Source: a virus. From it: DNA of 64,000 nucleotides. A program made the translations under genes and the position numbers. Within the stretch, counting starts at the first letter, position 1. Each line of letters starts with the position of its first letter. The notes under the pieces are model-generated. The model made no database searches, had not been told where the DNA came from, and was given only the letters and a program-made list of their open reading frames with translations. Positions 23,647 through 39,753 of the stretch are shown in pieces. The DNA is taken from the IMG/VR virus record IMGVR_UViG_3300033273_000374, positions 126,001-190,000 of that record; one strand, 5' to 3'.

Positions 23647-25347
23647 ATGAAGTTACCAAACGATGCAGAGGCACAACTAAATCGATTACTAGGCGCATTC
23701 ATAAGGCAAATACCAGAGGCACCCGAATATCGAGAGAGACTGGTCGAAGAACTTGAGATCATACTCAAATTACGCTTCACCGATTACTTCCTAACAATTT
23801 GCGATGTACTGACGCTAACCGCGGACATTCCCCACATGACCAGAGGTTCAGCAGGGTCAAGTCTTGTGTGTTACCTATTAGGTATCACTGATGTGGATCC
23901 CATAAGATGGCAAATACCGGTTGCACGTTTCCTAAATCCTTTGAGGGATGACTTGCCAGATGTGGACATAGACTTTCCGCATTGGCAACAGGATACTGTG
24001 ATGCAAAGAGTATTTGCGAAATGGCCTGGTCGCAGTGCAAGAATCAGTAACTATGTGCTATACAAGGAGCGCAGTGCCCGTAGAGAAGCGGCACGCCGTC
24101 TTGGCGCATCTGGCAAACTCCCTCGCAATTTTAAGTATGAAGATTATGACATCGATAAGGAAGAGGCAATGAGGCTCGAAAAGAAACTACTAGGCAAAAA
24201 AAGATCAATATCAAAACACTGTGGTGGCATTGTGATACTAAAACACAAGGTGCCAAAAAGTCTAATCAACCAAGACAATCAGTTGATGCTGGACAAAAGA
24301 GAAGTAGAAGATTTAGAACATCTAAAAATAGACATACTGGCCAACAGAGGGTTGAGCCAACTGTTAGAAATAGACAGTGACACACCACTGGAAGCATATC
24401 CAGAACAAGATTTTGAAACATCACAACTGTTGTGTAGAGGTGATGTGCTAGGCGTAACGCAGGCTGAGTCCCCGGCCATGCGACGCCTGTTCCAAGCAAT
24501 ACAACCACAATCAAAAGCAGATTGTGTGTTTGCCACAGCACTGATTCGTCCTGTGGCCACAACAGGAAGACAAAAGGCAGCATTTTTTCAAGACTGGACA
24601 GAAAGCGCACTAGAAGATACCATAGTGTATGAAGATGATGCCATACACAAAATAGCAAACCTAATTGGTTGCGACATGTATGAAGCAGACATGTATCGTC
24701 GTGCATTTGCAAAACGTGACGAAGAACGTGTGATGGAATTTATGGGCAAGATGGGAGAATGTGAAGACAAAGAACAGATTATCCAAGAACTGTATGGCTT
24801 GGGTAACTTTGGGTTGTGTAGAGCACATGCTGTGAATCTTGGAAGGCTGATTTGGGCATTAGCATATCAAAAAGCACACAACCCAAAGGATTTTTGGCGT
24901 GCTGCACTCAAACACTGTGTGGGATCATACAGACGTTGGGTACACAAAACGGAAGCAAAGAATGCGGGGTGGGATCTACGTGAACTGGGTTATGAGAATG
25001 GCATCACCAGCACACCACAAGCACAGTATCGCAAACATGGTTATTGGACACAACCTGACTTTATGCCTGGTATGTTTATACAAGAAACTTGGGGCGATAG
25101 AGTAAACTTTGCAGGACTCATAGCCAATGGCAGAACATTCCGTGGTGAAAGTGGACGCTATGTTACATTTGTTACTGCAGGCATTGCCAATGGCGAGTAT
25201 GTGGACATCACAGTCAAACGTCCGTTCTCACACAAGGATCATGATGTTATTGTGGGTTCAGGTAAGATACGCATAAGCAACGGTGCACGTTACATTGAGT
25301 GTTATGATGCACAAGGTCATAGATTAGAAAAATATTTGTCAAATTGA
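23647..25347 (+). CDS. DnaE/PolC-like DNA polymerase core lacking PHP domain
   Basis: The 566-residue protein has the palm and fingers of bacterial Pol III alpha: TRGSAGSSLVCYLLGITDVDP (residues 65-85), PDVDIDF with Asp105 and Asp107 matching the catalytic pair, and HLKIDILANRG with Asp229 as the third Asp. Fingers motifs follow: GVTQAESPAMRRLF, ALIRPVATTGRQ, YEADMYRRAFAKRD, LGNFGLCRAHAVNLGRLIWA. The usual N-terminal PHP domain is absent and the tail is short, so it is about half normal size. It could be a repair or accessory polymerase, or a regulator. Plus-strand, with a structured leader. Confidence 0.75.
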   Translation: MKLPNDAEAQLNRLLGAFIRQIPEAPEYRERLVEELEIILKLRFTDYFLTICDVLTLTADIPHMTRGSAGSSLVCYLLGITDVDPIRWQIPVARFLNPLRDDLPDVDIDFPHWQQDTVMQRVFAKWPGRSARISNYVLYKERSARREAARRLGASGKLPRNFKYEDYDIDKEEAMRLEKKLLGKKRSISKHCGGIVILKHKVPKSLINQDNQLMLDKREVEDLEHLKIDILANRGLSQLLEIDSDTPLEAYPEQDFETSQLLCRGDVLGVTQAESPAMRRLFQAIQPQSKADCVFATALIRPVATTGRQKAAFFQDWTESALEDTIVYEDDAIHKIANLIGCDMYEADMYRRAFAKRDEERVMEFMGKMGECEDKEQIIQELYGLGNFGLCRAHAVNLGRLIWALAYQKAHNPKDFWRAALKHCVGSYRRWVHKTEAKNAGWDLRELGYENGITSTPQAQYRKHGYWTQPDFMPGMFIQETWGDRVNFAGLIANGRTFRGESGRYVTFVTAGIANGEYVDITVKRPFSHKDHDVIVGSGKIRISNGARYIECYDAQGHRLEKYLSN

Positions 25348-26308: not shown

Positions 26309-27709
26309 CTAGCCACTTTGCTTCAATCCAGCCAACATATCTTTTAGTTTACTGCTCTGTACACTGGCTGTAATCTTGCCTACATCCTCATCACCTGCTT
26401 CAGCAACACCAGCATTGTCTTTTGACTTGATTTGTTCATAGATACTGCTTGATTGTTTCTTGAACTGTTGATATTCTTCATCCTCGCCCAAGTCTCTGAT
26501 GCGCAAACTTTCAACATCAAACTCTAAATCAATCTTTTGTCCAACACCACTTGAACTACGTGTTTTCATAAGTTGCAATTGATAGCGTCCACGTTCACGC
26601 ATTGCTCTACTTGTAAAGATACCAAACACATTGTCTGCAGTGTTGATCTTACTCAAGCCACCTGCAATCATGCTGTGATCAAATTCAATTTCTTCAACTG
26701 CACTACGATTCAACTGACTTGCTGTAACAAACACACAGTTTAATTCTTTGGCTAAGTTGCGCAGTTCTTCACTCACATACTTGTCTTTAACAAACAGGTC
26801 ATTGGGCGATACCTTGGCACTCACTGGCATGATCAAATCCAAATAGTCAATCAACAAAAAATCAATCTTCCAACCTAGTTTGATCTGCAGTTCTTTAAGG
26901 TATGCCCGTATGTCATTTACATTGCTCTGTGCTGGCATGTATTTGATCTGTAAACGGCCTGCTTTTTTGCCTACCATACGAACTTTCATTTCAACAGTGT
27001 CAAGATCTTTAAACACCTCCTTGGTTGACACATTGGTCATCATGCTGTCAATGCGCATTGCACTCAAGCCTTCTGAAAGTTCCAGTGTGAGATACACACC
27101 ATTTAACCCGCTAGTAGTCCAATTGACTGCTAGATTCTGCATGAACAAACTTTTGCCTGACCCTGATCCACCTGCAAATATATTGAGTTCACCCTTGTTC
27201 ATGCCGCCAAACAGTTTCCTATCCACTGCTGGCCACCCTGTTGAAATCTGTCCATTGTTGTCTTTGAGTGCCATAAGTCTGGCTCTTGGATCAGCAAAGT
27301 AGTCTGTGCCCATGTCTTTTGTGAGACTGATTTGTACAGCATCTTTGATGATCTTTTCAACAGGGTCGTATTCGCCTTTCTCAAGCAAGTCTGCACTTTT
27401 GAGAATGGCACGTTCTAGTTCTTGCCGCTTGGTGAATCCTTCAAACTCTGCAAGAAACCAGTCGTTGTGACTTTCAGTTACGTCTGGCACTGGCTTTAGT
27501 TCTACACCTGTCACAGCCTGCACCTGCTCTCTTGTGGGCAGTGTGCCATGATCCTTGCTGTGTGTGTCTATGAACTGTGCAGTGTCTCGCAAACTACGAT
27601 CAAAGTTGTCTACATTGAAAATGTTTTGCACCCGCACAAAGTTTTGTGCATCGTTAAGCATCATTTCTAAAAATAATTTTTGTAAGTCTGGTGTATATTC
27701 TTTTGTCAT
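26309..27709 (-). CDS. Replicative DNA helicase (DnaB/gp41-like)
   Basis: From MTKEYTPDLQKLF (ATG overlapping the previous stop as ATGA) the product is 466 residues. It has a helical N-terminal domain and a RecA-type C-terminal domain with Walker A GGSGSGKSLFMQNLA, Walker B IDFLLIDYLDLI and a ASQLNRSAVEEIEFDHSMIA motif typical of DnaB/gp41 helicases. It should unwind the fork with the gp61-like primase encoded about 2 kb upstream in the same run. Length matches T4 gp41. Confidence 0.9.
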   Translation of the reverse strand: MTKEYTPDLQKLFLEMMLNDAQNFVRVQNIFNVDNFDRSLRDTAQFIDTHSKDHGTLPTREQVQAVTGVELKPVPDVTESHNDWFLAEFEGFTKRQELERAILKSADLLEKGEYDPVEKIIKDAVQISLTKDMGTDYFADPRARLMALKDNNGQISTGWPAVDRKLFGGMNKGELNIFAGGSGSGKSLFMQNLAVNWTTSGLNGVYLTLELSEGLSAMRIDSMMTNVSTKEVFKDLDTVEMKVRMVGKKAGRLQIKYMPAQSNVNDIRAYLKELQIKLGWKIDFLLIDYLDLIMPVSAKVSPNDLFVKDKYVSEELRNLAKELNCVFVTASQLNRSAVEEIEFDHSMIAGGLSKINTADNVFGIFTSRAMRERGRYQLQLMKTRSSSGVGQKIDLEFDVESLRIRDLGEDEEYQQFKKQSSSIYEQIKSKDNAGVAEAGDEDVGKITASVQSSKLKDMLAGLKQSG

Positions 27710-28686
27710 TTCCAACCTAATTTATCAATACGATCTAAAATTTTTTCACTGTACATTTGATGTGTGAGTGGGCCCGGGTGCATATTGTCTGTGCCATAGT
27801 CTAAAAAGTAACTATCGTGCTCAATTCCACATTGTTCATCTATCAATAGAAAATTTGATTGTGTACATAGCACTGAACTAATTTCTACGTCTACATGTAT
27901 GCCTACTAGCAATAGTTCAACACCTAGTTTTTTGCAAAAGTTTTCAACTTGTCGTATAGCCCTCATTCCAACATGATGCCAATGACGATCTGATATCATT
28001 TTTTGTGTGATTATTCCTTTGAAATTTTTTGCTTCTGGTCGATCAAAAAAATGTATTCCTATGTGTTGTACACTATTACCTGTTATGTACCACGGAAGTC
28101 TATTGGTGTATGTTAATCCCCAAATAACTTTATCACCTTTTTGTAGATCTGCTCTCAGCAATTGATCACTTTGCCATTGTAAACTAGTTCTAGACTGTGC
28201 TAGATTTACAGTAGGAATATTTAGTTTGTTGCTAATAGATTTCCAATAAACTTCATCAAAATCTATAGCCTCTCCTGCTGTTGTGCTGCATCCTATAATC
28301 CATAGATTACTATCTTGTGACAATCTTGGTTTTATGGTGGGTGCATCTAGTGCTGGAGTTTTATCTATCTCAAATATGGTTTGCTGCAATGTTGATATTA
28401 TTTTACAGTAAACATAAGAAGTTTGTGCCATGCTGAATCTATCATCAACAGTTGCACCATCAGACCATACATCATCATTGGGAGAACAATAAATGATTTG
28501 AGTTGCTTTAAACAATAGATCAATTAATCCTTTAACACCAACATCAGCAATGCTGGTATATATAACTCCAATGTGATTGCGATCTATATTACTATATTCC
28601 ACTAGGTAAGCATTAGGGTCAATCTCGTGCGCACGGTCTGACAGATAATTTGTACTATCGCCAACTATCACTGTTAAATTATTCAT
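27706..28686 (-). CDS. SGNH-hydrolase-like protein (copy 1)
   Basis: From ATG 28686 (TAATG overlap with the radical SAM gene) the product is 326 residues. Residues about 130-145 read NLWIIGCSTTAGEAIDFDEV, a block I-like G-C-S start, then TVNLAQSRTSLQWQSDQLL (block II), KVIWGLTYTNRLPW (block III-like) and a C-terminal DNMHPGPLTHQM with the HPG..H pattern. It differs from the other five copies by an extra 130-residue N-terminal domain. SGNH proteins cut or move acyl groups; the substrate is unknown. Confidence 0.6.
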   Translation of the reverse strand: MNNLTVIVGDSTNYLSDRAHEIDPNAYLVEYSNIDRNHIGVIYTSIADVGVKGLIDLLFKATQIIYCSPNDDVWSDGATVDDRFSMAQTSYVYCKIISTLQQTIFEIDKTPALDAPTIKPRLSQDSNLWIIGCSTTAGEAIDFDEVYWKSISNKLNIPTVNLAQSRTSLQWQSDQLLRADLQKGDKVIWGLTYTNRLPWYITGNSVQHIGIHFFDRPEAKNFKGIITQKMISDRHWHHVGMRAIRQVENFCKKLGVELLLVGIHVDVEISSVLCTQSNFLLIDEQCGIEHDSYFLDYGTDNMHPGPLTHQMYSEKILDRIDKLGWK

Positions 28687-29570
28687 TAACATTTTCCACA
28701 GTTAAAAACGCAATAGTCATAACGTTCAGTTTGTATTGTACTATAGAATTCGTCAAAATACCTAATTTGTTCACTGAGTTTGGTTGTTGTTATGTTGTGT
28801 TTGCTACGATCATGCCACCATTTGCTTTTATAATAAAATTCATAATGAGTCATCATACAACAAGGACTATAAATTCCTCTTGAACTTATGTAGTGTTCAA
28901 CTCCAGTTTTGCATATTGGATCTATCTCAAAATCTTTTTGATTTTGTTTTTTATAAAGTTGTTGAACTGTGTCACGTGGACCTATGTATTTTGTAGGTCT
29001 TAATGGATCATCGTTCAACCAACGATCGCTTGGCTCTACTCTAAATTCGTCAATACCAAAACTGTTGGCAATCTTTCTGGTATGTTCTATATCATGTTCA
29101 TTGAAACTAAAAGGTATATACCTCCACATTGTTCTAGCTGGACCTGCAACACATTCTTCTATGCCAATTTTTATAGTGTTCCAGTCTGCATTTACTCGGT
29201 ACTGAGTAAAGTTTTCGGGTGTGCCATCAATACTAAATTTTACACTATCAATTGGGCGTAGCACTTGATTAAACTTTTGCCACCAATTGCGAGTCTTGTA
29301 ACTTCCGTTAGTAGTGATATGCATGCGATTGCATTTTTTTGTTAGCACATCAACTAGTTCTATAAACTTGCGATGATATATTGGATCACCTGTATTACCG
29401 CATAAATTAATATCGTCTACTGGTGTATCTATAAATGATTCTAATGCATCTATATCAATGTCGTTTATAGCAAAGTTTTTCTTTCCAAACCTGTCCATAA
29501 AAGTTGTGCGCTCGCATCTAGGACATGCAAGTGTACATCTGCTAGTGGGTTCAATGTGCAAACTAACCAA
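28686..29570 (-). CDS. Radical SAM/SPASM protein
   Basis: The 294-residue protein starts (TTG) VSLHIEPTSRCTLACPRCER with the CxxxCxxC cluster site at the N-terminus, continues as a partial barrel (DDINLCGNTGDPIYHRKFIEL, KFSIDGTPENFTQYR) and ends in a SPASM-like cysteine set (CKTGVEHY, SPCCMM, YDYCVFNCGKC). Such enzymes modify peptides or sugars or act as dehydrogenases. It lies between primase and an SGNH gene and overlaps both. No precursor peptide was identified. The start codon is uncertain. Confidence 0.8.
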   Translation of the reverse strand: MVSLHIEPTSRCTLACPRCERTTFMDRFGKKNFAINDIDIDALESFIDTPVDDINLCGNTGDPIYHRKFIELVDVLTKKCNRMHITTNGSYKTRNWWQKFNQVLRPIDSVKFSIDGTPENFTQYRVNADWNTIKIGIEECVAGPARTMWRYIPFSFNEHDIEHTRKIANSFGIDEFRVEPSDRWLNDDPLRPTKYIGPRDTVQQLYKKQNQKDFEIDPICKTGVEHYISSRGIYSPCCMMTHYEFYYKSKWWHDRSKHNITTTKLSEQIRYFDEFYSTIQTERYDYCVFNCGKC

Positions 29571-30528
29571 GGCGTTTTCTCAACAGATTAATTTTTAAAC
29601 TGTTTGATTGTTTTGCATCAAGTATGCTTTTGAGTGTAAACAGTTTACCATAACGCACAACAGCATCATTTACATCTTTAACATCGTTGTGCCATTCAGG
29701 AAAACTCACACTCCATCCATATTCTAATGCATCATCTATCAAACGTTGTCCTGCTCTATCTCTGTCCGGCACCAATATAACTTCTCTAGCCAATGTGTCA
29801 ATGATTTGTGCTTGTTGTTCACTGCACTGATTGCTCATTATGCCCACACCACCTATGCACATTGCATCCAACAGTCCTTCAGTGACCACACAAAACCTAG
29901 CATTAGACAACTGATTATCAATACCATACACATAGCCACTGTCATGGTTAGTAAAGTATTTGGGTCTACCTGTATCGTCTGTGGTCCTTGCACTGAATCC
30001 TATAACTTCGTTGTTCCAAGTGAAAGGCACAATGATGCGTTTCCACATGCCTGCAGGTTTGCTGTTGCTCCATAATAATTTATGCACAGGCAAACATCTG
30101 TCAACAGCATACTGTTGTATGTGTTTGGGCGCACGATCTAATGCTACCACTCCTTCTGGCAATGGTCGAGGTTTAAACTCTACAACAATAGCATCTTCGT
30201 CTGGTTCCAACAGTTCAACTGTGTCTTTGATACGCAGTGCTTCAATGTTTAGCATCTGTCGTGTGTTTTCGTCAATGCCCAACCATGTAAGCAGTTTGCG
30301 CAGTTTAAAACTGATGTGCCGGCCGGGCTGCCAGCCTGTTTTAAATCCACAGTTGAAACAGTGATAACTCACAGCATCACCATTCATTATCACACCGCCT
30401 CTGCCTCTACGATCTGTGCTTTCGCCATTGTGATGACAGCATACAGCATTAAACGAAATCCAACCACCACTGCTGGTTTTACGCTTGCCAGGCAACGCAT
30501 CAAATACACTTTGTTGTATACTATTCAT
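29563..30528 (-). CDS. DNA primase (gp61-like, zinc ribbon plus Toprim)
   Basis: The 321-residue protein has a zinc-binding N-terminus (AVCCHHNGE and HCFNCGFK, residues about 28-63) and a Toprim core: FCVVTEGLLDAMCIGG (acidic Glu) and VILVPDRDRAGQRLIDDA (DxD), as in T4 gp61 and DnaG. It makes RNA primers with the helicase. Its ATG lies six bases after a TATAAT box, so the message may be leaderless. It ends by overlapping the radical SAM gene. Confidence 0.88.
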   Translation of the reverse strand: MNSIQQSVFDALPGKRKTSSGGWISFNAVCCHHNGESTDRRGRGGVIMNGDAVSYHCFNCGFKTGWQPGRHISFKLRKLLTWLGIDENTRQMLNIEALRIKDTVELLEPDEDAIVVEFKPRPLPEGVVALDRAPKHIQQYAVDRCLPVHKLLWSNSKPAGMWKRIIVPFTWNNEVIGFSARTTDDTGRPKYFTNHDSGYVYGIDNQLSNARFCVVTEGLLDAMCIGGVGIMSNQCSEQQAQIIDTLAREVILVPDRDRAGQRLIDDALEYGWSVSFPEWHNDVKDVNDAVVRYGKLFTLKSILDAKQSNSLKINLLRKRLG

Positions 30529-31085
30529 GTGTTTATTATAGCATCTAACTCGTTTTTGATCAATTGAAAAATACGTTTGTGTCCTCGCCCATTTGGATGC
30601 AAGTGATCAGCAATGTACTGTTTTCTGTCCTGCATCAACACATCTACCATGTGTGGCACACAGTTGATATGCATGTGTTTGATACCTCGTAGTTCACAAG
30701 CATTAGAGACTATTTGTTTTGGGTACCAGTCATGCACATCTTCAATATAGTTGCTTAATTGGTTGTTTACATAATCTACTACACTTGCTGTTAGCAGACT
30801 GCCACGTTTCTTTTGTTGTATGTAGTTGAGATGCTCCCAACAACCTGTGTGGTTATTGTACCAACTGTTGCGATTGGGATGTGACCACCCAAACAGCACC
30901 ACATCATCTGATTGTATCTGGTGTTGCGTTTCGCAAAAATGTAGTGCTATCCATGGATTACTGGCACTGCTCTGACTGTGCTGTACAAAATCATAACCAT
31001 AATGGTCAGCGGCTATAAGCCCATAACAGGTAGTGGCTTCTTCTCCTAGGCTTACACTGCAACCATATTGATGTATAGTAGGCAT
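30525..31085 (-). CDS. SGNH-hydrolase-like protein (copy 2)
   Basis: The 186-residue protein starts IHQYGCSVSLGEEATTCYG (block I-like), has SQSSASNPWIALHF (block II), DDVVLFGWSHPNRNSWYNNH (the family W-x3-R-x-x-W motif) and ends DHLHPNGRGHKRIFQLI with the catalytic-type HPN..GH. The block I serine is in GCSVS, where other copies have GCSFTYG. It overlaps the primase by four bases. Confidence 0.68.
   Translation of the reverse strand: MPTIHQYGCSVSLGEEATTCYGLIAADHYGYDFVQHSQSSASNPWIALHFCETQHQIQSDDVVLFGWSHPNRNSWYNNHTGCWEHLNYIQQKKRGSLLTASVVDYVNNQLSNYIEDVHDWYPKQIVSNACELRGIKHMHINCVPHMVDVLMQDRKQYIADHLHPNGRGHKRIFQLIKNELDAIINT
30535..30563 (-). promoter_or_regulatory. Sigma70-like promoter of primase
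   Basis: TTGATC, 17 bases, TATAAT on the minus strand; AAACAC then the primase ATG. The -10 to ATG gap is six bases, as in the nuclease promoter, where TAACAC precedes ATG. Confidence 0.6.
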
Positions 31086-31768
31086 CAGTATCTATCCACA
31101 CAGTAACCATCATACCAGTGTTGATCCTGAATCCAGGTGTGGTTGCGTACTTTTTCCTCTGCAGCAGCAAACTCTAATCTTGTCTTATCATCAACTTCTA
31201 GTTCAGGTAAAACATAATCCAAATAGTTTATGTGCTGTTGTGGTGTTGGATGGTAGTCATCATCAAATGCTGCATTGTGCCAATCACCTTTATAGATGAT
31301 GTTGTGTACACTGGGTCTAATTGTTTGTAGTGTCTTTGCATATGTTTGTGTTGGATCATGAAACAACTGTATCTCTTGATCACTGTCAAAGATATTTAAA
31401 TCAATCATGCTTAAAAAATAATATTCACACCCAATACCTTCTAGTATAAGTTTTGCTGCGTGTATGTTAGCACAATCTCTAATAAAACTGCCATAGGTAT
31501 CTACGATTGTAGCACCAGGTGTTTGCCACGATCCATCACTATAACTGTCTTCTCTATCACGTGATGTCCACATAACAATCACAGTGTCGTCAGCTGAAAT
31601 AGTGTGCCTTGCATCACATTCTGCAATGCTCCACAGTATAAAACTATTGCCACCACCACCTTTTCCAAAGTTGTAGTATTGATCAAACTGAGGTGCTAGA
31701 GCATCTGCCCATGTGGGCCACTTGTAGCGTGTAAAACTACAACCAAATGTAAACAATCTGCCATGCAT
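31085..31768 (-). CDS. SGNH-hydrolase-like protein (copy 3)
   Basis: The 227-residue protein starts LFTFGCSFTRYKWPTWADAL (GCSFT, block I), then YNFGKGGGGNSFILWSI (block II Gly and Asn), DTVIVMWTSRDREDSYSDG (WTS..RE) and DDDYHPTPQQHINYLD (HP..H). It is the closest in layout to copies 4 to 6. A terminator and a small-gene operon lie just upstream. Confidence 0.72.
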   Translation of the reverse strand: MHGRLFTFGCSFTRYKWPTWADALAPQFDQYYNFGKGGGGNSFILWSIAECDARHTISADDTVIVMWTSRDREDSYSDGSWQTPGATIVDTYGSFIRDCANIHAAKLILEGIGCEYYFLSMIDLNIFDSDQEIQLFHDPTQTYAKTLQTIRPSVHNIIYKGDWHNAAFDDDYHPTPQQHINYLDYVLPELEVDDKTRLEFAAAEEKVRNHTWIQDQHWYDGYCVDRY

Positions 31769-32644: not shown

Positions 32645-33349
32645 CTAAGCCAGTATCTTAGCGTCAATGTAAGGTATCATCTGTTCAACAAACAATTCAT
32701 GTCCACGTTCATTTGGGTGTTCGCCTCCGGCAAACACACTATCTCCATGTTGTGATCTTAACCAGTCGTGCATGTTGTTGTTACCCATAAATGTGTTATC
32801 AAATTTTGGATATACAACAGGGCTTAGGTCACCTTCATAACCTTTTGTTGGAGGAAGTGCATTGAATTGTACATAACGTGCACCATACTGTTTTAACAAT
32901 GCATTGGTGCTCATGCGAAGTGTAACGTCCCATTGCCTCTGATGTCCCAAACTGTGTTTGATCCATTCAACCACACTGTTTCTAAAACAAGCATCACCAG
33001 GATGTGGATTGTCATTGAATCTTACAAAGCCTGAATGAACCCAACGGTCTTCGTCATCATGATACCAACTCATTCTATCTATGCTGGTCCATGCAACTGC
33101 TATAAACAAATCTTCTCGTGGTGTAGGATTTTGTTGTATGTATTCGCATACAGTTTGCCATATGTATGTGTTACTACCACTGGGCTGGCCTCTGTTGTCA
33201 TAGGTTGCACCATAGTGCTGCGCCAGACGTCCAAGCCACACATGCTGTTCTCTGTAACTAATATTTTCGTGATGTTGATCCCAAGTTGCGTTGGGTGCAA
33301 CAAGTTCGCTGCCGTAGGTAAAACTGCAGCCTATACCTATTATGTGCAT
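32645..33349 (-). CDS. SGNH-hydrolase-like protein (copy 4)
   Basis: The 234-residue protein starts HIIGIGCSFTYGSELVAPNA (GCSFTYG block I), then NRGQPSGSNTYIWQTV (block II with Gly and Asn), DLFIAVAWTSIDRMSWYHDD (WTS..R) and FAGGEHPNERGHELFVEQMI (HP..GH). These give the Ser, Gly, Asn and His expected of SGNH enzymes. It overlaps the structural gene upstream by TAATG. No signal peptide. Confidence 0.75.
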   Translation of the reverse strand: MHIIGIGCSFTYGSELVAPNATWDQHHENISYREQHVWLGRLAQHYGATYDNRGQPSGSNTYIWQTVCEYIQQNPTPREDLFIAVAWTSIDRMSWYHDDEDRWVHSGFVRFNDNPHPGDACFRNSVVEWIKHSLGHQRQWDVTLRMSTNALLKQYGARYVQFNALPPTKGYEGDLSPVVYPKFDNTFMGNNNMHDWLRSQHGDSVFAGGEHPNERGHELFVEQMIPYIDAKILA

Positions 33350-34128: not shown

Positions 34129-34503
34129 ATGAGCCAATACGCAGAAGAAACATTTGAAAAATATCCCTTTTTAAGTTTAGTCACATACGGCGGTAATGAA
34201 TACATAGGCATAATACAAAACCAAGACGATACTGTACTCAGCATTTATGATTACAGTCGCATTAAAAGTGATGAAGCAAAAAATCTTTTTTTAGAATTAG
34301 GTGAACAATGGTGGTGGGAAAGCAATAGAATGATCCCCATTAATCTTTTTCTCAAAAGAGAATGGGATGTTTTTACCACGGTGTTGTTAACACTTAATGT
34401 AAAAGATTGCAACGTTGTATATGGCGGCACTGTAAGCATCAGCGATCTGGCAAAAAAAAGAAGCAAAAGACGCAACATACAATTGGTAAGGAAACCTAAA
34501 TGA
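34129..34503 (+). CDS. Conserved hypothetical protein
   Basis: The 124-residue protein (MSQYAEETFEKYPFLSLVTY) has a small beta-barrel-like start (YGGNEYIGIIQNQDDTVLSIYDY), a Trp-rich helix (GEQWWWESNRMIPINLFL) and a basic tail (DLAKKRSKRRNIQLVRKPK). The IQNQDDTVLSIYDY part looks Sm/Hfq-like in length, but the match is weak. I associate this layout with T4-like marine phages. Coupled by ATGA to the next gene. Confidence 0.55.
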   Translation: MSQYAEETFEKYPFLSLVTYGGNEYIGIIQNQDDTVLSIYDYSRIKSDEAKNLFLELGEQWWWESNRMIPINLFLKREWDVFTTVLLTLNVKDCNVVYGGTVSISDLAKKRSKRRNIQLVRKPK

Positions 34504-34884: not shown

Positions 34885-35457
34885 TTATTTTTTTTCTATT
34901 TCTTCAATAAGGTTCATGTGAACAACTACTAATTGCGAATAGGCTATGGAATGCGACTTCTTAAAAAAGTATGTGTCATCTGTGGGACGTTGCCAAACAC
35001 TTGCTCCAACAGTGGCCCAATCTTTTCCACGTAGGTGTGCTTTGCCTGGGCGTATCACTGCAAGCAACATGGCCATTCTTGCCACACTGTCAGGACGCAT
35101 GTTTGCCACAAGATCATAATGATTGCCTATGTGTATGATTTGCTCGCAGTATTCTCTGTCAGTCCACAGTCTACTCCAATTGGGTTCTGTGTGCATTAGA
35201 TCAATCAAATGCAATTCATCACGCACATGCTCATACATACTAACGTTTAGCAAGTCTAGTTTAAAATAGCCTAATTCTTCTGCATGTTCGTGTTCAAGTG
35301 TGGCAATGCCATCCATTGCTGCAGGAATATCTGTAAAGTACACGCCGGTGTTGTGTTGACGACCAGTGTTTAGTCTTGCAGGTGTACCATGTATGTGTTT
35401 TAGCACACTGGTGCGATCTGCAAAATCTATATCAATATCAGGATTTGTCTTTACCAT
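34885..35457 (-). CDS. Minimal DnaE-palm-like protein (190 aa)
   Basis: Starting at MVKTNPDIDIDFADRTSVLK (ATG 35457, 7-base overlap with the previous gene) the product keeps the Pol III alpha catalytic motifs in a very small frame: PDIDIDF (Asp7, Asp9), RQHNTGVYFTDIP (the HxxGV element), GYFKLDLLNV (Asp68 as third Asp), IRPGKAHLRGK and FFKKSHSIAYSQLVVV (the fingers KSHxxxY helix). Most of the palm insert and all other domains are missing. It could be an inactive regulator, a minimal nucleotidyltransferase or a partner of the 566-residue DnaE-like protein. The longer frame to 35523 overlaps the upstream gene and lacks family support. Confidence 0.65.
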   Translation of the reverse strand: MVKTNPDIDIDFADRTSVLKHIHGTPARLNTGRQHNTGVYFTDIPAAMDGIATLEHEHAEELGYFKLDLLNVSMYEHVRDELHLIDLMHTEPNWSRLWTDREYCEQIIHIGNHYDLVANMRPDSVARMAMLLAVIRPGKAHLRGKDWATVGASVWQRPTDDTYFFKKSHSIAYSQLVVVHMNLIEEIEKK

Positions 35458-35660
35458 AGTTGCAAAGTCTTTCCATTTCCTGCTATAATCATAACACACG
35501 TTACAATGTGTAACACTATCCAAAATGTCCTAGCCCATAAAGCACGTTTTACATCTCGTTGAGTGATAGGCAAAAACTCAGGTTTGTCATCGTCAGTGAG
35601 TCCAATTGGCATGCCAACAGTTCTTGCCCACCATTTTAGCCAACGGCGTTGGCCACTCAT
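35451..35660 (-). CDS. Small membrane protein
   Basis: The 69-residue protein has a basic Trp-rich N-terminus (MSGQRRWLKWWARTVGMPIG) and one hydrophobic segment (FWIVLHIVTCVMIIAGNG). It links the MazG-like gene to the minimal DnaE gene through short overlaps. Function unknown. Confidence 0.5.
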   Translation of the reverse strand: MSGQRRWLKWWARTVGMPIGLTDDDKPEFLPITQRDVKRALWARTFWIVLHIVTCVMIIAGNGKTLQLW

Positions 35661-36456: not shown

Positions 36457-36606
36457 CTAGTCTTCCTTTTGTGATGCTAGTTCAGCAAACCTTTTTGCAA
36501 TGGTTCTCAATACTTCAGCATCAATATTAGCAGCACCCCAATGTTCAACGCTATGTGCGATGCTATTTAATTTTTTTAACATTTCGTTGTCTGTCATTTC
36601 CATCAT
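36457..36606 (-). CDS. Small hypothetical protein (49 aa)
   Basis: MMEMTDNEMLKKLNSIAHSV, then EHWGAANIDAEVLRTIAKRF, is a helical acidic protein whose ATG overlaps the TGA of gcvH (ATGA). Coupling and helical periodicity support it as real. No family recognised. Confidence 0.5.
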   Translation of the reverse strand: MMEMTDNEMLKKLNSIAHSVEHWGAANIDAEVLRTIAKRFAELASQKED

Positions 36607-36968
36607 GCAATGAACTCTCGATACTGTTCTTCGGTCATTAGTGCGTCCATATCATCCCAATTGTCTGGAACCATTTTAAAGAACCAGCCATTATCAAGTG
36701 GTTCACGGTTGACTAGTTCTGGATCATCTATCAACAATGGATTTACTTCTACAATTGTTCCAGCAATAGGACAGTAAACATCACTTGCTGCCTTGACACT
36801 TTCAACAACTGCACAGTCAGCATTTGCACCAAAGCTACTGTCAACTGGAGGTAGGTCAACAAAAACAATATCTCCCAACTGATTGACAGCATACTCCGAT
36901 ATTCCAACTATGAGAACATCATCTTCTCTTCGTAACCATTCATGTTCGTCTGTGTATCTTATTGTCAT
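36603..36968 (-). CDS. gcvH: Glycine cleavage system H protein (lipoyl carrier)
   Basis: The 121-residue protein follows GcvH along its length: YTDEHEWLRREDDVLIVGIS at the start, YAVNQLGDIVFVDLP, then the lipoylation site AVVESVKAASDVYCPIAGTI with Lys59 in ESVKAASD, and ELVNREPLDNGWFFKM near the end. GcvH shuttles the aminomethyl group between the P, T and L proteins. No P, T or L gene lies in this window, so it would work with host enzymes or supply lipoyl groups. It is full length with intact motif, so probably functional. Confidence 0.92.
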   Translation of the reverse strand: MTIRYTDEHEWLRREDDVLIVGISEYAVNQLGDIVFVDLPPVDSSFGANADCAVVESVKAASDVYCPIAGTIVEVNPLLIDDPELVNREPLDNGWFFKMVPDNWDDMDALMTEEQYREFIA

Positions 36969-37691: not shown

Positions 37692-38549
37692 CTATTCCTC
37701 GTCTCTAGTTGCTCGAACTGGTTTATAATTTAACATGTTGTGTGGATATTCGTTTTCCCATATCTCTATTTCATAACCAAGGTACTGCTCAACTAAATTA
37801 TCTAGATATCCTTGTTGATATAAACAGAAATTACTAATGTCCATGTCTGAATTGGAAATAAAACATTTCATTGCACGTTCAACTTCAATCTTGGACTGTA
37901 TTACCTGTTGCTTTCGATTTATAAAATCTTGCCAACGATGTTCAATGTCATAAGAATATTCTTTACCTAAATCTGCCAATAATCGTATTAGATTGTGCTT
38001 GAAATTTTCGTAGTTGTAGAACCATTCAAAATTAAATTTGTGATCAATTGTAAATTGTTTATAGTGTACTTCTTGGCTTTGTAAATTTCCATTCAATGGA
38101 CGGAAACCTAATTTAAACATTTCTCTAAATCCTGGAACACCATTATCTTTAAAGATGTTTACTTGAGATTCTAATCCTGATGTAACTAAATCATGCCATG
38201 ATTTATTCTTAATTATTGGCAATATATCATCAAAGTCTTTAACATCTAATAGATTTAAGCCAAATTCACCTGCAGCGTGATGTACGTGCCAATTCAAAAA
38301 ATAAAGATCCGTTGGTTTAAGATGTATATAACACCAAACGTGTGTGATATTAGATTCTAAAGTTGGGTTTGGGTGTGCATGTCTAACAAGTTTTTCAAAA
38401 TTTCTGTTTGCATGTGCTCCTATAGTCTCACCTTTATCATTGTCATGATAAAAATCAAAATCAGGTGATGTTCCGCTGCTGACACTTAAACATCTAGCTA
38501 AAAAATGACCATGTGTTCCGCCTCTAAAAAGTAAAATAGGTAACGTCAT
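37692..38549 (-). CDS. Sulfotransferase-like P-loop protein
   Basis: From ATG 38549 (ATGA overlap) the product is 285 residues. It opens MTLPILLFRGGTHGHFLARC, where RGGTHGHFLARCL could replace the sulfotransferase PAPS loop (R-S-G-T-T-x-L). The rest is helical with Trp/His-rich segments (THVWCYIHLKPTDLYFLNWH). The match is weak. It lies next to the P-loop kinase. The longer frame to 38582 overlaps the zinc-finger gene and is not preferred. Confidence 0.45.
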   Translation of the reverse strand: MTLPILLFRGGTHGHFLARCLSVSSGTSPDFDFYHDNDKGETIGAHANRNFEKLVRHAHPNPTLESNITHVWCYIHLKPTDLYFLNWHVHHAAGEFGLNLLDVKDFDDILPIIKNKSWHDLVTSGLESQVNIFKDNGVPGFREMFKLGFRPLNGNLQSQEVHYKQFTIDHKFNFEWFYNYENFKHNLIRLLADLGKEYSYDIEHRWQDFINRKQQVIQSKIEVERAMKCFISNSDMDISNFCLYQQGYLDNLVEQYLGYEIEIWENEYPHNMLNYKPVRATRDEE

Positions 38550-39277
38550 AATCCTGCTTCCTTGAGTATGTGCTTGACCCATTCTGTGTCAGCATAGTAA
38601 TCTACAAACCTACGCTTCCAGTAATCTGGATCTATGTATGGAAATACCAGTTCAATTTGTTCGGTACTGAGTTTATCTAATACACCAATACCTGTATCGC
38701 AATTGTAAACGACCCAACTACTTATGCGTCCTGTGGTTATGTCATGCACAATACGATTGGGGCTAGCATATAAAAAGTAATGATTAAACACACTTTCTTT
38801 TTGTTCTGCCCAAGCAGTCATTGTTTTCAGACTGCGTTCTAGTGCATCTTGTGTTGCTTCTTTGCGCAAGTGTTCAAACAAGTATTCTTGATATAGTGCA
38901 TCCTTGCACCAATGGTCTAATTTTTTGTTTTGCTTTATAACCCAGTCAATGAACTTGGCGGTGTTTATAGCACGTATGTTGACCATGTGCCTACCAAACT
39001 TTACAAACGCATTGTAGTATGGACTTTCGCAAAAGTCTTTGTAGTTTTTTAGTTTGGCGCTGCCTTGTGTTAGTTCATAGAAACGCAAATAAGCAGTCAT
39101 GCCCAATTTGACACCTGCTTCATTTTCCTGTTGCGCACGTCGCTTGGGCTCGCACAGGTGTGCTGCAAGAGTACTTTCCTTGCGATATCCTTTTCCGCAA
39201 TATTGGCATGTGTAGTCTAGATTTTGCATTTTATGATTTATTATAGCATGTTTGATGATGCTTGTAAAGTCATTCAT
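38546..39277 (-). CDS. C2H2-like zinc-finger protein of T4-like marine phages
   Basis: The protein contains YTCQYCGKGYRKESTLAAHLC, a Cys-Cys...His-Cys finger, followed by about 200 helical residues (GMTAYLRFYELTQGSAKLKN; YNAFVKFGRHMVNIRAINTA). I associate this architecture with a conserved gene beside the replication genes of marine T4-like phages. Two starts are possible: ATG 39277, coupled by ATGA to the upstream gene, or ATG 39229 (MQNLDYTCQYC), just downstream of a TATAAT box. A DNA-binding or transcription role is plausible. Confidence 0.6.
   Translation of the reverse strand: MNDFTSIIKHAIINHKMQNLDYTCQYCGKGYRKESTLAAHLCEPKRRAQQENEAGVKLGMTAYLRFYELTQGSAKLKNYKDFCESPYYNAFVKFGRHMVNIRAINTAKFIDWVIKQNKKLDHWCKDALYQEYLFEHLRKEATQDALERSLKTMTAWAEQKESVFNHYFLYASPNRIVHDITTGRISSWVVYNCDTGIGVLDKLSTEQIELVFPYIDPDYWKRRFVDYYADTEWVKHILKEAGL
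39240..39268 (-). promoter_or_regulatory. Sigma70-like promoter before zinc-finger gene
   Basis: TTTACA, 17 bases, TATAAT on the minus strand, ten bases before the internal ATG at 39229. If used, the message would have almost no leader. Confidence 0.45.
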
Positions 39278-39753
39278 AATTTGCCATCATTGCCATGCAA
39301 TTGGTCTAGTGCTTTTATATCTTTTTCTGTGTATTGTGTACACAACCAGTCCAACTCATCACTTTTGGCTGTAGGGTGCATCTTTTTTATGTACTTGCGT
39401 ACCTTGTTGGTATTGCTTTTGTCTTTCTTTTTGTGTGCCACCCATTGATGAAACTGCTTGCCCATGCCTGGACTCACAGTGCATAACAATTGCCATACTA
39501 GTTTAGGATGTTTTGCCAGTTCAAAGTACTGTGTGTTCACACGTTGATTTGTAGCCATCAAGTAGTATGCAGCAAGATCGTTGCTGCCTTTTACAATGCT
39601 CATGTATCTGTTGAGCAAGAATGGAGACACAGTCTTTTGCTGTTCGGGTGTGAGTCTGTCATAGAAACCATAGTCTTTTGCATCCAGTGCATTCAGTATG
39701 GCATTGAGTGGAACTTTGTCAGTCAAAATGCACACCTCCGGTTGTGATGTCAT
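39274..39753 (-). CDS. Putative clamp-loader small subunit (gp62-like)
   Basis: The 159-residue helical protein has DYGFYDRLTPEQQKTVSPFL, then LNRYMSIVKGSNDLAAYYLM and QFHQWVAHKKKDKSNTNKV. The order (F-x-x-L-(x)n-F-L-x-R-x-x-S ... W-x-x-K-K-K) resembles T4-type gp62. In T4, gp62 works with gp44 to load the clamp. No gp44 or clamp gene is adjacent here. A TTG start at 39726 would reduce the 35-base overlap with the neighbour. Confidence 0.45.
   Translation of the reverse strand: MTSQPEVCILTDKVPLNAILNALDAKDYGFYDRLTPEQQKTVSPFLLNRYMSIVKGSNDLAAYYLMATNQRVNTQYFELAKHPKLVWQLLCTVSPGMGKQFHQWVAHKKKDKSNTNKVRKYIKKMHPTAKSDELDWLCTQYTEKDIKALDQLHGNDGKL

Follow-up and report, generated by a model that had tools for sequence, protein, structure and literature searches.

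A short phage protein, probably the C-terminal piece of a minimal DNA polymerase III alpha encoded in two parts

Family C polymerases, split and intact, and the locus analysed here

The closest described system comes from the group 2.2 jumbo phages, in which Iyer et al. 2021 (PMC7824862) recognised, by computational analysis, a split minimal DNA polymerase III alpha (Pol III alpha). These authors, whose reading of the pair agrees with ours, suggested that the split enzyme serves the synthesis of one strand or repair, and noted that no other Pol III domains are present in the phages that have it. A limited literature search yielded no further papers on the split enzyme.

The bacterial DnaE, or Pol III alpha, with known structures from Taq (2hpi/3e0d), E. 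coli (2hnh) and mycobacteria (5lew), has the same fold and the same order of catalytic elements as the phage pair. Unlike bacterial DnaE, the split pair has neither the PHP domain nor the C-terminal domains, it retains little of the thumb and a portion of the fingers, and the break between the two phage chains falls between RFL and PDxDxDF. The DnaE of some cyanobacteria is also encoded by two genes, and its halves bear the pieces of a split intein and are spliced into the full DnaE. The phage enzyme resembles the split cyanobacterial DnaE in consisting of two separate genes, but there is no extra sequence at the phage junction and no intein-like sequence at the ends of the halves.

The window, that is, the whole stretch of 64,000 nucleotides that was analysed, covers bases 126001-190000 of a 202,913-base (202.9-kb) virus record and encodes, at 34885..35457 on the minus strand, a 190-aa protein. 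This protein is a new case of the already described split minimal Pol III alpha; very probably, it forms the C-terminal half of a minimal family C enzyme, a two-subunit Pol III alpha, in a T4-like phage of the jumbo type. As in the group 2.2 jumbo phages (PMC7824862; PHROGs 11127 and 11778 for the N and C halves, respectively), the two halves are encoded by stand-alone, far-apart genes, the N half corresponding to the NTP-binding part and the C half to the metal- and template-binding part, beside a family B polymerase. The features of the split form are all found here, namely, a stand-alone C half of the ~190-215 aa class, a distant N half with GRGS and a family B polymerase. Unlike the phages of PMC7824862, the phage in the window has, as do its marine relatives, a further protein, a one-chain relative of Pol III alpha of 566 aa; the absence of other Pol III domains is a co-occurrence remark of that paper rather than a property of the enzyme, and it does not extend to this genome. 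A marine clade that combines PolB and the split enzyme with a PHP-less Pol III alpha in one chain is apparently new, the presence of both forms in some marine phages being absent from the published description. In addition to this co-existence, the present analysis goes beyond PMC7824862 in the residue-level tiling of the halves by models, the invariance of residues in a large set and the gene neighbourhoods.

The two halves and the DnaE catalytic core

The C half, assigned from its match to phrog_11778, the structural model and the invariant residues, is predicted to comprise the latter part of the palm, in which the metal-binding aspartates lie, and shortened fingers. The DnaE signatures to which the earlier note drew attention are indeed present, in order, in the translation of the intact open reading frame (ORF): PDIDIDF at residues 6-12, HNTGVYF at 35-41, FKLDLL at 65-70, RPGK at 136-139 and KSHSIAY at 167-173. 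The start codon, at 35457, shares ATGGTAA with the stop codon of a 69-aa ORF that lies upstream (35451..35660, minus strand), an overlap that fits translational coupling and supports the C-half start; in the named phages, the genes that precede the C half bear no evident likeness to this ORF.

Searches of Pfam with the C half give no match even at an E-value of 10, and phmmer against the PDB sequences returns chance matches alone, so that a plain look at the sequence would label it an orphan. The phrog_11778 profile matches the protein over its full length (E 5.6e-54), and further matches come from 66 annotated phage records and from over 500 IMG/VR stretches. The protein is thus short but conserved rather than a remnant, and the split form turns out to be very widespread among environmental phages. 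The identity to the C halves of the 12 named phages compared is 27-46%, and the ORFs of C-half relatives are 166-233 aa long. The possibility of a frameshifted remnant is further dispelled by the reading frame, which is intact in 118 non-redundant relatives. The halves are under purifying selection (dN/dS 0.08-0.14), with a dN/dS of 0.14 between the 190-aa protein and its closest relative and 0.08-0.12 for other pairs of halves. Among the annotated homologs, the database entry for Atu_ph07 gp074 (L052:4004-4579) looks truncated: the annotated start of this C half, L052:4085, falls downstream of DxDxD, which an in-frame ATG at L052:4004 would take in.

A search of the whole record with phrog_405, a phage DnaE profile, points to 4 places, namely, the 566-aa protein, the 190-aa protein, which is matched as two pieces, and a third gene, matched at 83851-84060 on the minus strand. 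This third gene (G000:C1:83827-84354, minus strand, outside the window) encodes a 175-aa protein that matches phrog_11127 (E 3.5e-44) and is the candidate N half of the split Pol III alpha, 77 kb away from the C half in the same phage record; it was invisible to the earlier note because it lies outside the window. The N half carries, in its C-terminal part, the GRGS half of the DnaE palm and terminates in ...NNIVWGVGRGSSVASYVLYLIGVHKIDSMYYDLDIEEFLR, that is, ...DIEEFLR. Its last ~79 residues (96-174) align with residues 376-454 of Taq Pol III alpha, and after this end point DnaE continues through a loop into PDxDxDF, which is the start of the 190-aa protein. The evident partner of the C half is this N half, in place of the 566-aa protein.

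Structural models point in the same direction. The AlphaFold2 models, built with alignments of the record's own proteins and the sequences of related loci, have mean pLDDT values of 94.9 for the C half, which taken alone is predicted to adopt the DnaE fold, and 90.6 for the N half. The C-half model (residues 1-190) superimposes on residues 415-808 of 5lew and 457-838 of Taq Pol III alpha (VIA-align Z 9.8-9.9, the latter value for Taq; 187-188 residues aligned). The N-half model matches from after residues 1-75 onward, with residues 76-175 on 306-413 of 5lew (Z 11.9) and 75-175 on 294-455 of Taq (Z 10.0); the first unrelated rows in the structural alignments have Z of 4.0 and 2.9. In these models, the two halves tile the DnaE catalytic core, abutting without overlap. 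Profile comparison with full-length phage DnaE by hhalign gives E-values of 2.4e-7 and 6.4e-7 for the C and N halves, respectively. The motifs of the 190-aa protein, which the earlier note had read as DnaE catalytic motifs, are thus placed on the DnaE palm and fingers. The palm GS motif and the acidic residues of the pair occupy the DnaE positions in the hhalign alignments, the structures and the invariant columns alike, that is, the pair has the catalytic fold of family C (DnaE/PolC).

Invariant across 118 non-redundant C halves are D7, D9, D11, H35, G38, K66, D68, L70, R136, P137 and K139, and across 88 N halves, R106, E110, G141 and G143-R-G-S146; the finger and active-site motifs RPxK and FKKSHxxxY are retained in the C halves nearly without exception. 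The invariance of DxDxD, FKxxHxxxY and GRGS is partly built in, as these motifs partly served as search patterns, but that of K66-x-D68 (KxD) and RPxK is no selection effect because they were absent from the patterns. Counted in alignment columns, DxDxD and the conserved H are separated by 24 residues in the C half vs ~104 in phage DnaE, and RPxK and the later H by 33 vs ~117 residues. Going by the domain map of E. coli DnaE, we take the first loss to be that of the thumb and the second that of part of the fingers. Full DnaE and PolC possess PHP, thumb and C-terminal domains; the 190 + 175 aa of the split pair leave no room for them, and the spacing shows the losses. No separate PHP domain was found in the window's record or in the four others searched.

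The halves occur together. Each of the 12 named jumbo phage records tested that has a C half (PA5oct, Phosso, Atu_ph07, GAP32, 121Q, RaK2, Vibrio 2.275.O, Munch, SCTP-2, XacN1, Slicko01 and RAS14) encodes a family B polymerase and exactly one N half, at a distance of 11-224 kb; the window's record likewise combines the C half with a single N half and with a family B polymerase of 886 aa (Pfam DNA_pol_B, 3.6e-30). The 12 IMG/VR records without an N half are fragments of 15-99 kb and hence uninformative on co-occurrence. The distances among N halves and among C halves correlate (mirror-tree r 0.906), which is also expected from shared phage descent, so this correlation is a sign of co-descent alone. 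No fusion of the N and C halves was found in 350 loci, apart from a one-chain protein of the uncultured phage LR756508, which consists of 575 aa, matches both half-profiles in order and is encoded together with a family B polymerase in a genome from which the split pair is absent.

The one-chain relative in the same genome

The 566-aa protein (23647..25347, plus strand), located where the earlier note had put the larger protein, is a one-chain, PHP-less relative of Pol III alpha (Pfam DNA_pol3_alpha, 5.3e-43; DNA_pol3_finger, 2.3e-13). The presence of two family C polymerase relatives in one genome led the earlier note to propose that the 190-aa protein arose by duplication and shrinkage of this gene. 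The phylogeny of both proteins is incompatible with such a relationship. The split and one-chain forms belong to separate clades: the 566-aa protein clusters with the single-chain LR756508 protein (support 98.8/100), apart from the split proteins, which are separated by a branch with 100/100 support. Over the shared core, the 566-aa protein is 18% identical to the record's split pair, which in turn is 49% identical to the PA5oct pair; the one-chain proteins show on average 30% identity to phage DnaEs. Furthermore, the frames of the 190-aa protein and its relatives are intact across many contigs, with the dN/dS of 0.14 given above. The tree and the conservation accordingly reject an origin of the 190-aa protein from a local, decayed duplicate of the 566-aa gene, and we assign such an origin practically no probability.

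Relatives of the 566-aa protein are detectable in at least 90 IMG/VR stretches and are common in marine contigs. Of the 15 longer contigs carrying such a relative, 9 also encode the C half, roughly 7-11 kb away, so the co-existence of the one-chain and split forms is a clade-level trait. In the fragments with the 566-aa relative, the matches to the N half come from the relative's own palm alone; given the spacing in the window's record, the N half would fall beyond the ends of the two longest of these fragments. The proximity of the two genes in the same marine clade is what could speak for a second proposal, in which the 190-aa protein would act as a regulator paired with the 566-aa one. This proposal did not hold up: none of the 12 jumbo phage records with the split pair encodes a close relative of the 566-aa protein (the weak match among them is Slicko01's own N half alone), but all contain the C half along with the N half, and we consider a regulatory role of this kind highly unlikely. 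A third suggestion, that of a minimal nucleotidyltransferase, comes close; the protein is very probably one of two halves, with the N half encoded separately.

Genomic setting and putative activity of the pair

The N and C halves sit in separate gene blocks. On the C-half side, the window encodes a DNA primase (29563..30528, minus strand; phrog_47, E 3.8e-35) and a DnaB/gp41-like replicative helicase (26309..27715, minus strand; phrog_19, E 4.8e-70). A gp41-type helicase is encoded within 5 kb of the C half in 68 of 127 loci, and in several named phages, the primase and the helicase lie downstream of the C half. N halves adjoin a GroES-like gene in 87 of 93 loci, and a gp44-type clamp loader is encoded near the N half in 71 of the 93.

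We infer the physical assembly of the pair, its catalysis and the exact step that it serves along the following lines. The N half would supply the GxGRGS triphosphate-binding element, and the C half the metal-binding aspartates (DxDxD and KxD) as well as the shortened fingers with RPxK and H..Y; the halves would join non-covalently, without splicing, to form a pol-beta-type nucleotidyltransferase active site. Because it lacks the PHP domain, most of the thumb, some of the fingers and all that follows them, the pair is predicted to be weakly processive and reliant on the phage replisome, namely, the primase, the gp41-type helicase and the clamp loader. It might work beside the family B polymerase, for example, in primer extension, gap filling or repair.

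The loss of the thumb and part of the fingers (24 vs ~104 and 33 vs ~117 residues) could, however, have abolished templated polymerase activity and left some other nucleotidyltransferase or a structural factor. The assembled pair would then copy no DNA, being either a nucleotidyltransferase for other substrates (short primers, end tailing) or a non-catalytic replisome factor, and the family B polymerase already encoded in the genome is in line with this reading. We nevertheless regard it as rather improbable, given that RPxK and FKKSHxxxY persist nearly unaltered and that the genes lie within replication blocks.

A further proposal is that the marine clade runs three DNA polymerases side by side, namely, a gp43-like family B polymerase, the thumb-less Pol III alpha of two subunits and the PHP-less one of a single chain, and that the two family C enzymes have different jobs; on this proposal we are evenly divided. 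With the short protein identified and its missing partner named, the pair is open to direct expression and testing, and the question is raised whether a family C active site can be rebuilt from two unjoined chains without a thumb or PHP domain.

A possible third component is the convergent neighbour of the C half, a member of the phrog_11637 family (34129..34503, plus strand; E 6.7e-32). In 123 of 127 loci, a phrog_11637 gene is found near the C half on the opposite strand, and linkage this tight suggests that its function is connected to that of the split polymerase. The gene order in the window, namely, C half, phrog_11637 gene, further genes, primase and helicase, is the order in several named phages. 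Three of the neighbours (30525-31085, 31085-31768 and 32645-33349, all on the minus strand) display GCSFT or HPxxxGH-like signatures and are weakly similar to GDSL lipases or DUF6071; similar genes are present near the C half in other contigs. On the other side, the minus strand encodes a glycine cleavage H protein (36603-36968; Pfam GCV_H, 5.3e-40), a C2H2-like zinc finger protein of phrog_11058 (38546-39277) and a member of phrog_11758 (39274-39753); the region upstream of the C half holds families similar to the latter two in over 100 of the 127 loci.
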